Assembly (NCBI GenBank): GCA_947469285.1 | Contig: CANIOW010000015.1 | Span: 1 to 64,000 of the forward strand | Length of the DNA: 64,000 nucleotides | Direction: 5' to 3' | Origin: Gammaproteobacteria bacterium | GTDB taxonomy: Bacteria > Pseudomonadota > Gammaproteobacteria > Steroidobacterales > Steroidobacteraceae | Part shown: positions 33,939 to 36,573 of the stretch, in pieces | How positions within the stretch are numbered: position 1 is the first letter of the stretch | How the letters are laid out: each line of letters starts with the position of its first letter | Translations under genes and position numbers: made by a program | Notes under the pieces: generated by a model | Seen by the model: only the letters and a program-made list of their open reading frames with translations | Told to the model about the DNA's origin: nothing | Databases searched by the model: none

Positions 33939-34627
33939 TCCGCTTCGAAACGGTGACCAAGCGCTATGCGAACGGCCGCGAGGCCCTGGCCGCGGCCAGC
34001 TTTCACGTCAGCCCGGGCGAAATGGTGTTCCTGACCGGGCACAGTGGCGCTGGCAAAAGCACGCTACTGAAACTGGTGGCCGCCATCGAACGGCCCACCC
34101 GCGGCACCGTCATCATCAACCGGCAATCCGTGTCAGCTCTGTCACGCTCGGCGGTGGCTGCGTTCCGCCGCCGGATCGGCATGGTGTTCCAAGACCACAA
34201 ACTGCTGTATGACCGGCCCGTGTTCGACAACGTGGCCCTGCCACTGGTGGTTGATGGCGTCTCGCGGCGTGAAGTTGATAAACGCGTGCGCGCAGCACTG
34301 GATCAGGTCGGCCTACTCGGCCGCGAGACGGGTTTCCCGATGGAGTTGTCTACCGGCGAACAACAGCGGGTAGGCATCGCGCGCGCGGTGGTGTCCCGAC
34401 CCACCATCCTCATCGCCGACGAACCCACCGGCAATCTTGACCCCGACCTCGCGGTCGACGTGATGGCGATTTTCCAGCGCTTTAATGCGGTGGGGACCAC
34501 GGTGCTGATCGCCACGCACGACGTGCATCTCATCGAACGCTTCCCGGTGCGGCGTCTGCATCTCGGTCAAGGCCGGGTACTGCGCGATGAACCGGCTGCG
34601 GCGCTGGGAGACTCGCATGGCGGATGA
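33935..34627 (+). CDS. ftsE: Cell division ATP-binding protein FtsE
   Basis: A 230-residue ABC ATPase with Walker A GHSGAGKST (about 35-43), Q-loop VFQDHKLL, signature LSTGEQQRVGIARA (about 138-151), Walker B ILIADEPTGNLD and the switch His in IATHD. With FtsX it controls septal peptidoglycan hydrolases at the division site. Starts inside the ftsY stop (ATGA) and overlaps ftsX by 11 bases. Confidence 0.98.
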   Translation: MIRFETVTKRYANGREALAAASFHVSPGEMVFLTGHSGAGKSTLLKLVAAIERPTRGTVIINRQSVSALSRSAVAAFRRRIGMVFQDHKLLYDRPVFDNVALPLVVDGVSRREVDKRVRAALDQVGLLGRETGFPMELSTGEQQRVGIARAVVSRPTILIADEPTGNLDPDLAVDVMAIFQRFNAVGTTVLIATHDVHLIERFPVRRLHLGQGRVLRDEPAAALGDSHGG

Positions 34628-35582
34628 AGGTTTGTCGGTCACGCGTCGACCCTTTCGGGCGCGGCTTGACGGCTGGCTGGAGCGCCATGCCCAGGTGTGC
34701 GTGGGCACGCTCGGCCGGTTGTATGCGCGCCCGATAGCCACCCTGCTCATCTGGACCGTCATCGGTGTGGCGCTGGCCTTGCCGGCCCTGCTGCAGGTCA
34801 CAGTGCGAAATCTGGAAGCGGCTGGCCCTGGCCAGGGGCGTGCTTATGCCATCGACGTGTTCCTGAAGCCCGTGTTGGGGGTACCGCAGGCGCGGCAGGT
34901 GGCAGACCGTTTGCGCGAACGTGACGATGTGGCTCGCGTGGAGCTGATCACGGCCGAAGAGGGTCTGGCCGAATTCCGTCTGCGCTCGGGGTTTGGCGAG
35001 GCTCTCGATGCGCTCACCGACAACCCCTTGCCCGCCACCTTGATCATCTCGCCCTCACCCAACAGCACCACCCCCGCGGCACTCGCTCACCTGCGCGACG
35101 CCCTTCAGGCATTGCCGGAAGTGGACCAGGTGGTGGCAGACATGCAGTGGGCCGAACGGTTACAAGCCCTACTCGCCGCCGCCAAACGCATCAGTAATGG
35201 CGCCGGCTTGCTGCTGGCACTGGCGGTACTGCTGGTGGTTGGCCAAGTCGTCCGCGGAGACATCGAAACGCGACGCGCCGAGATCGAGGTGTCAAAACTG
35301 CTCGGCGCCAGTGACGGATTCGTACGCCGACCATTCCTGTACACCGGCTTTTGGTACGGGTTTGGAGGTGGAATGCTGGCGCTGCTGCTGGTCCTGGGGG
35401 CCGTGGCCTGGGTATCGCCCACGGTGGTCCGCCTGGCGGCCCTCTATGGCAGCAACTTCCGTATGCTGGGGCTGCCCATTAGCGGCTACCTGAGCCTGGT
35501 GGCCAGCGGCGCCGTGCTGGGATGGCTGGGCAGCGGCTTTGCCGCCACTTGGCGGCTGCGGCAAATCGAGCCCGGTCTTTAA
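34617..35582 (+). CDS. ftsX: Cell division protein FtsX
   Basis: A 321-residue inner-membrane partner of FtsE with four membrane segments (about residues 45-65, 190-215, 240-265 and 285-310). The large periplasmic loop between the first two contains VFLKPVLGVPQARQVADRL. ATG 34617 is preferred over ATG 34587 because GGGAG sits six to ten bases before it and the overlap with ftsE shrinks to 11 bases. FtsEX transmits ATP-driven conformational signals to cell-wall amidase activators. Confidence 0.94.
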   Translation: MADEGLSVTRRPFRARLDGWLERHAQVCVGTLGRLYARPIATLLIWTVIGVALALPALLQVTVRNLEAAGPGQGRAYAIDVFLKPVLGVPQARQVADRLRERDDVARVELITAEEGLAEFRLRSGFGEALDALTDNPLPATLIISPSPNSTTPAALAHLRDALQALPEVDQVVADMQWAERLQALLAAAKRISNGAGLLLALAVLLVVGQVVRGDIETRRAEIEVSKLLGASDGFVRRPFLYTGFWYGFGGGMLALLLVLGAVAWVSPTVVRLAALYGSNFRMLGLPISGYLSLVASGAVLGWLGSGFAATWRLRQIEPGL

Positions 35583-35615
35583 ATTCGGTCCATTTGGGCG
35601 GAACCAAACCGGGGG

Positions 35616-35642
35616 TTAGCACTCCAAACAGACGAGTGCTAA
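35616..35642. promoter_or_regulatory. CIRCE element (HrcA operator) upstream of rpoH
   Basis: TTAGCACTC (35616-35624), a 9-base spacer, and GAGTGCTAA (35634-35642) form the exact consensus CIRCE inverted repeat TTAGCACTC-N9-GAGTGCTAA with no mismatch. It ends 28 bases before the rpoH start codon, between ftsX and rpoH. CIRCE is bound by the repressor HrcA, classically at groESL and dnaK operons, and can also act in the mRNA leader. hrcA is not in this window. Confidence 0.95.
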
Positions 35643-35670
35643 ACTGGTTTTACCCAAGGAGGGACGTCAC

Positions 35671-36573
35671 ATGACCACCACCGCCGTTGCTCTGAGCCCG
35701 CTCCCCGTCGCCCCCGGCCTACCGCCGGCCGTGGTGTTGCGGGGCCCGATAGGCTCGCTGGATGCCTACATCGATGCCGTCAGCAAAGTCCCCGTGCTGA
35801 CGCGCGAAGCCGAACTCGCTCTGGCCCGCCAGCTGCGCGATGGTGGCGACTTAGCCGCCGCCCGCCAGCTGGTGTACTCGCACCTGCGCTTCGTGGTGCA
35901 CATTGCCCGCGGCTACAACGGCTATGGCCTGCCGCTGGCGGACCTGGTGCAGGAAGGCAATGTCGGGCTCATGAAAGCCGTCAAGCGCTTCAACCCAGAT
36001 GTTGGTGTACGACTGGTGTCGTTCGCGGTTCACTGGATTCGTGCCGAAATTCACGAATACGTGCTGCGTAACTGGCGCCTGGTGAAGGTGGCCACCACCA
36101 AAGCCCAGCGCAAGTTGTTCTTTAATCTGCGTAAGACCAAGAAGTCGCTGTCTTGGCTGACGGCCGAAGAAACAGCGGCCGTGGCCCGCGACCTGAACGT
36201 GGACCCGGCCGAAGTCACCGAAATGGAGAAGCGTCTCTCGGCACGCGACGTGGCATTCGACCCGATGCCCGATGCGGATGATGAAGACGGCAACTACTCG
36301 CCGGCCACCTACCTGCCCGCCCCAGACGCAGACCCGGCTATCGCCGTGGAACGCGAAGAAAGCGAGAGCGACACCACCACACGCCTAAAAGCCGCGGTGG
36401 CTGGGCTGGATGCACGCAGTCGCGACATCCTGCTGCGCCGTTTTTTGGCGGAGGATAAAGCAACCCTCCATGAACTGGCCGCCGAGCATGGTGTTTCTGC
36501 CGAACGGGTCCGGCAGATCGAAGCCAATGCGCTGAAAAAGCTCCGCAAAGTGCTTGGGGAAGACACACTGTAA
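35671..36573 (+). CDS. rpoH: RNA polymerase heat-shock sigma factor RpoH (sigma-32)
   Basis: A 300-residue group 3 sigma factor. Region 2 has [39 protein letters not shown] (about 90-128), followed by the diagnostic RpoH box [10 protein letters not shown] (about 144-153). Region 4 helix-turn-helix is at the C-terminus ([27 protein letters not shown]). A strong AAGGAGG lies eight bases before the ATG. Translation and stability of sigma-32 are heat-controlled in E. coli; here a perfect CIRCE site in the leader points to added repression by HrcA. The gene follows ftsYEX as in most gammaproteobacteria. Confidence 0.97.

Follow-up and report, generated by a model that had tools for sequence, protein, structure and literature searches.

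A perfect CIRCE element overlapping a predicted sigma-E promoter in front of rpoH, where CIRCE sites are common among hrcA-bearing Gammaproteobacteria

What might the operator of the repressor HrcA be doing in front of rpoH, the gene for the heat-shock sigma factor sigma-32? HrcA and its operator CIRCE control the groESL and dnaK operons in bacteria such as Bacillus subtilis, Chlamydia and the rhizobia, and sigma-32 in E. coli is controlled by sigma-E promoters, RNA folding and proteolysis. The window examined here is a stretch of 64,000 nucleotides from contig CANIOW010000015.1 of a member of the Steroidobacteraceae (assembly GCA_947469285.1). A first-pass annotation of its sequence had described a mismatch-free CIRCE 28 bases 5′ of the rpoH start and had proposed that HrcA controls rpoH.

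The repeat is exactly as described, with 28 bp between its end and the ATG at 35671 (Table 1); its arms TTAGCACTC and GAGTGCTAA enclose the spacer CAAACAGAC. The gene order is ftsY-ftsE-ftsX-rpoH, with family scores above the curated cut-offs. No other CIRCE match occurs in the window at up to three mismatches (shuffles give 0.02), and at the composition of the window about 1.3e-5 perfect copies are expected per 3.11 Mb genome. That expectation and the class-wide conservation described below refute a chance palindrome; we found no point in its favor and consider its probability negligible.

Table 1. Features of the ftsX-rpoH region, in coordinates of the window
Feature	Positions	Strand	Basis
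ftsX, upstream neighbor (ORF as listed; true start perhaps further in)	34587..35582	+	TIGR00439, 303.5 bits (cut-off 255)
GGAACCA, predicted sigma-E -35 (GAAC starts 15 bp before CIRCE)	35600..35606	+	GAAC position statistics
CIRCE, predicted HrcA operator, TTAGCACTC-N9-GAGTGCTAA, perfect	35616..35642	+	pattern search, relatives
TCCAA, predicted sigma-E -10 (left arm TC and first spacer bases)	35623..35627	+	spacer A statistics, N16
TGCTAAACT, possible extended -10 of sigma-70 type (right arm and three bases; weak match)	35637..35645	+	T at +3 statistics
AGGAGG, ribosome-binding site	35657..35662	+	read from sequence
rpoH, sigma-32	35671..36573	+	TIGR02392, 391.3 bits (cut-off 323.1)

The presence of hrcA, on which the proposal hung, was confirmed: the genome has one copy (TIGR00331, 320.8 bits against a cut-off of 197.2, with PF01628 also matching), which sits in the cluster hrcA-grpE-dnaK-dnaJ. 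It also has one groES and a single full dnaK, besides a short HSP70 match that scores weakly. Two CIRCE sites were found genome-wide at up to three mismatches, the perfect one at rpoH and one at groES with two mismatches, both in the same arm; no further targets appeared at that threshold. Upstream of hrcA, grpE, dnaK and dnaJ there is no CIRCE, the best candidates having 8–9 mismatches. The expectation that groESL and the dnaK/hrcA genes would carry the operator was thus borne out for groES and not for dnaK or hrcA. The strongest HrcA site predicted in the genome is therefore the one at rpoH, and the hrcA gene itself is without one.

Among named relatives, scanned at the best 80 of the 570 rpoH loci found, CIRCE at up to two mismatches precedes rpoH in 38 loci and is missing from the other 42. 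hrcA was sought in 50 hand-picked loci of this set, 20 with and 30 without the operator, and was found in all 20 genomes of the first kind vs. one of the 30 of the second (L049). The nearest relative among these best 80 (L007, with 87% RpoH identity) has a perfect CIRCE before rpoH; its contig begins 7 bases 5′ of the element, so that the -35 region is not visible. This sequence (CALPVO020000170.1) belongs to a metagenome-assembled genome titled Janthinobacterium lividum, a title that looks wrong, the next matches being Steroidobacter-like and other gammaproteobacterial metagenome-assembled genomes. A genome of the same family (G217) and another of the same order (G067) likewise have CIRCE before rpoH.

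We then turned to a panel of 185 genomes drawn evenly from Gammaproteobacteria, of which 138 have CIRCE (up to two mismatches), 170 have RpoH and 130 have hrcA. The panel holds 172 RpoH places; 150 were listed, leaving the weakest 22 outside, and 149 regions were counted, including that of the source window. The one listed region left out of the count (L143, from G130) failed the peptide motif; its site is perfect, with GAAC 15 bp upstream. CIRCE at up to two mismatches precedes rpoH in 97 of the 112 hrcA-positive regions vs. 9 of the 37 hrcA-negative ones, and sites with 3–4 mismatches add six and one region, respectively. The element is perfect in 60 of the 149. Nine hrcA-positive regions have no site, two of which belong to second RpoH copies (in G082 and G227) whose sister copies have sites with one or three mismatches. 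These two genomes encode two RpoH genes each (L193 and L203; L175 and L207), with a CIRCE or near-CIRCE at one copy only. As for the nine hrcA-negative regions with a site, one genome (G144) has a piece of hrcA at a contig end and five are 62–85% complete; in the remaining three (G066, G178, G185; 97–98% complete) the failure to find hrcA is unexplained. Four genomes of one family (L326-L329; genomes G507, G320, G525 and G616) have mirrored arm changes before rpoH, TTAGCAGTC-N9-GACTGCTAA, a pattern that fits recognition by a dimeric protein. Another genome (G060, L228) has tandem CIRCE-like repeats before rpoH, one perfect and the other with a changed left arm.

Conservation in close relatives, which had been named as a check on the proposal, is therefore seen in L007, G217 and G067 and extends to most hrcA-positive regions of the panel. 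Within the class, genomes that bear hrcA commonly have the rpoH CIRCE, and the named relatives and the panel rule out that it is peculiar to the source genome. Three observations make control of rpoH by HrcA the reading that fits the locus best, namely the hrcA gene, the retention of the repeat in relatives and the second CIRCE at groES; HrcA binding and its effect on expression are predicted.

HrcA control had been set against the sigma-E control known from E. coli, and here the annotation appears to have drawn the wrong opposition, for the two seem to be combined. The sigma-E promoter consensus is GAACTT-N16-TCNNA, and the CIRCE before rpoH in the source genome overlaps GGAACCA-N16-TCCAA, predicted -35 and -10 elements at sigma-E spacing. 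The genome encodes one RpoE above the cut-off (286.7 bits, cut-off 236.15), and its own rpoE gene is preceded by GGAACTT-N16-TCGTA (C10:15323), with equal spacing. The position of the -35 element recurs in the panel: GAAC starts at -16 to -14 relative to CIRCE in 69 of 106 rpoH sites (58 at exactly -15) vs. 1 of 38 groES and hrcA control sites (Fisher 1.4e-12), and the mean at other positions before the 106 is 0.48 per position, the largest being 3. The controls were 40 CIRCEs hand-picked among the matches listed and assigned to their genes by short peptide motif only; two (L282, L289) were unassignable, leaving 27 groES and 11 hrcA sites. When GAAC starts at -15, TC from the left arm falls 16 bases after the -35 hexamer. 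Spacer position 3 is occupied by A in 62 of the 69 rpoH sites that have the -35 vs. 4 of the 38 controls. GAAC is missing from -16 to -14 in 37 of the 106; in ten of these it lies at -32 to -29, from where the sigma-E -10 would fall just 5′ of the operator, and 27 have it at neither position.

The other arm may contribute to a promoter of the usual kind. At rpoH sites the right arm and the three bases that follow give TGCTAANNT, resembling an extended sigma-70 -10. The source genome has TGCTAAACT, a weak form of it, and a standard sigma-70 scan of 35400-35800 returned no promoter. T occupies the third position after CIRCE at 95 of the 106 panel rpoH sites and 37 of the 38 named ones, vs. 2 of 27 groES and 5 of 11 hrcA sites. 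GAAC, the spacer A and this T occur jointly in 55/106 panel sites, 32/38 named sites and 1/38 controls, and the consensus of the 58 sites whose GAAC starts at -15 reads gGAACtt-N9-TTaGCACTCtaA-N6-GAGTGCTAAaAT. Two cultured relatives, Chromatocurvus halotolerans DSM 23344 (L037) and Sediminihaliea albiluteola (L086), have this element along with hrcA. The groES sites of the class (L272-L311) are laid out differently: a conserved CTTGA is found chiefly at -28, and CTATNA or something close to it stands directly 5′ of CIRCE in 23 of 27 vs. 3 of the 106 rpoH sites, so that the groES operator follows CTTGA...CTATNA whereas the rpoH operator overlies GAAC...TCNNA. These signals therefore go with the gene and are not a property of CIRCE itself.

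Promoter letters were also found at loci that have no operator. The distance between GAAC and TG.TA...T is preserved in 18 of the 42 named loci that have no CIRCE, against 0.58 expected from single-base shuffles; the 18 include loci of Pseudomonas, Marinobacter, Gilvimarinus, Marinimicrobium and Thalassolituus. hrcA was not found in any of the 13 of these in which it was sought, and three of the 18 (L041, L073, L078) have a CIRCE-like site left, with 3–4 mismatches. In the panel, 7 of 43 regions without CIRCE keep the letters (0.76 expected by the same shuffles), hrcA being present in some of them. Some lineages have thus retained the promoter letters after the operator was lost.

We infer that the repeat is probably an HrcA operator laid over the core promoter of rpoH, where HrcA would block both sigma-E and sigma-70 RNA polymerase until GroE load releases it. 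The observations behind this are sequence, position, conservation, co-occurrence with hrcA, and promoter-element statistics. In the unstressed cell GroE would keep HrcA active, and HrcA would keep rpoH transcription low by covering the start region together with the sigma-E -10 and the sigma-70-like extended -10. GroE raises the DNA affinity of HrcA in other bacteria, according to excerpts of two papers (PMC6032397; PMC9959188), so GroE load would be expected to release rpoH: when misfolded protein occupies GroE, HrcA would let go of the operator. The freed gene would be open to sigma-70 RNA polymerase, and to sigma-E RNA polymerase as well if the envelope is stressed too, so that the release would be stronger when sigma-E is active. 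Sigma-32, which is presumed to control groESL and hrcA here, would then raise groESL and the dnaK operon, restoring GroE and HrcA in a negative feedback loop.

Other explanations share parts of this evidence. The palindrome might serve mainly as a hairpin in the mRNA leader, for example as a thermometer, and the annotation had suggested that it could affect transcript folding. The full repeat, if transcribed, makes a 9-bp stem, and a leader that includes it folds moderately better than shuffles (z -1.75). The starts, however, are predicted near 35634 for sigma-E and near 35652 for sigma-70, within the right arm or shortly past it, which would leave the complete hairpin out of the mRNA; once the left arm is absent, the leader shows no folding advantage over shuffles (z 0.93 and 0.36); the motif moreover retains DNA-operator letters and tracks hrcA. 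On the predicted starts and the fold scores we rejected the hairpin as the main function, and we regard it as very improbable. The CIRCE might instead be a relic, a former operator that now supplies promoter letters with no effect of HrcA. The persistence of those letters in relatives without CIRCE does indicate that promoter function maintains part of the repeat, and three near-complete genomes retain the site with no hrcA found. Against this, the site tracks hrcA presence and is perfect in 60 of 149 rpoH regions, including letters needless for any promoter element; we think a relic improbable.

It is also possible, though we judge it unlikely, that HrcA represses rpoH as proposed and that the conserved GAAC...TCNNA serves a different ECF sigma factor or sees little use; sigma-E and HrcA would then not act jointly. 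Similar -35 elements may be recognized by other ECF factors, a further RpoE-like match in the genome is weaker (103 bits, under the cut-off), and the 27 rpoH CIRCEs with GAAC at neither position also speak for this. Against it, the form and N16 spacing of the element equal those of the genome's own rpoE promoter and of the element in the E. coli ftsX-rpoH gap.

The locus shares with the classic HrcA/CIRCE systems of Bacillus subtilis, Chlamydia and rhizobia the operator consensus, the hrcA gene and a site at groES (here with two mismatches). It differs from them in its target, which is a sigma-factor gene rather than groESL or dnaK. In E. coli the ftsX-rpoH gap contains GAACTT-N16-TCTGA, which we take to be the sigma-E promoter P3, and it has in common with the source genome the sigma-E element at N16 spacing. 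There is no CIRCE in that gap, and a search of the E. coli control genome with PF01628 (HrcA) gave no hit; TIGR00331 lists E. coli among the controls at a loose E-value of 0.01, a list that does not state which controls pass the cut-off. An evolutionary reading that we neither favor nor disfavor is that the consensus given above was the old default of rpoH in Gammaproteobacteria, about 45 bp combining a sigma-E promoter, a sigma-70 promoter and an HrcA operator, so that one element would sense both envelope stress and GroE load. Where hrcA was lost, as in the lineages of Pseudomonas, the promoter letters would have stayed as the palindrome decayed, and the E. coli layout would be a remnant.

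If combined control is right, many Gammaproteobacteria run HrcA and sigma-32 in series and not merely side by side. A repressor would sit directly on a sigma-E promoter, tying two stress-control systems together there. Such an arrangement offers a testable explanation for the integration of envelope stress and cytosolic folding stress at a single gene, and it points to an E. coli layout that arose after loss of HrcA. The class-wide membership of rpoH and the overlap of sigma-E promoter with CIRCE may be new, the first perhaps being partly in print. Work by Ueki and Lovley from 2007 is said to treat RpoH of Geobacter and may report part of the rpoH-CIRCE pattern.

In the excerpts of the literature on CIRCE, rpoH and HrcA that we found, CIRCE before rpoH appears only in the survey of Rodionov and others 2004 (PMC545781), whose Table 8 gives a perfect predicted CIRCE at -51 before rpoH in Geobacter sulfurreducens, with hrcA in the genome. 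The two cases are alike in the perfect element before rpoH and the presence of hrcA. Geobacter sulfurreducens belongs to another phylum-level group, and the excerpts of that survey describe no sigma-E promoter overlap for it; its hrcA-dnaK and groESL also have CIRCE (PMC545781), whereas hrcA-dnaK of the source genome has none. Excerpts of three further papers (PMC9866376, PMC3224663, PMC2725144) make no mention of HrcA control of rpoH. We found in such excerpts no report of a class-wide rpoH CIRCE or of the sigma-E overlap; the survey by Permina and Gelfand 2003, cited in PMC545781, covers beta-, gamma- and epsilon-proteobacteria and may contain gamma cases, and so may hold the former in part.

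We also sought the composite consensus, at up to two mismatches, in 398 genomes of the phylum. It matched in 18, all in Gammaproteobacteria, with the CIRCE before rpoH in 17 and before clpB in one. Read in gene direction, GAAC is intact in 14 of these, one has CAAC, and three have CIRCE only (L312-L314). In the genome of the clpB case (G122), rpoH is without CIRCE, and the full GAAC/CIRCE composite (L319; G122:C8:47854-47898) stands with zero mismatches before a clpB gene that scores 834 bits to PRK10865 and is cut by the locus end.
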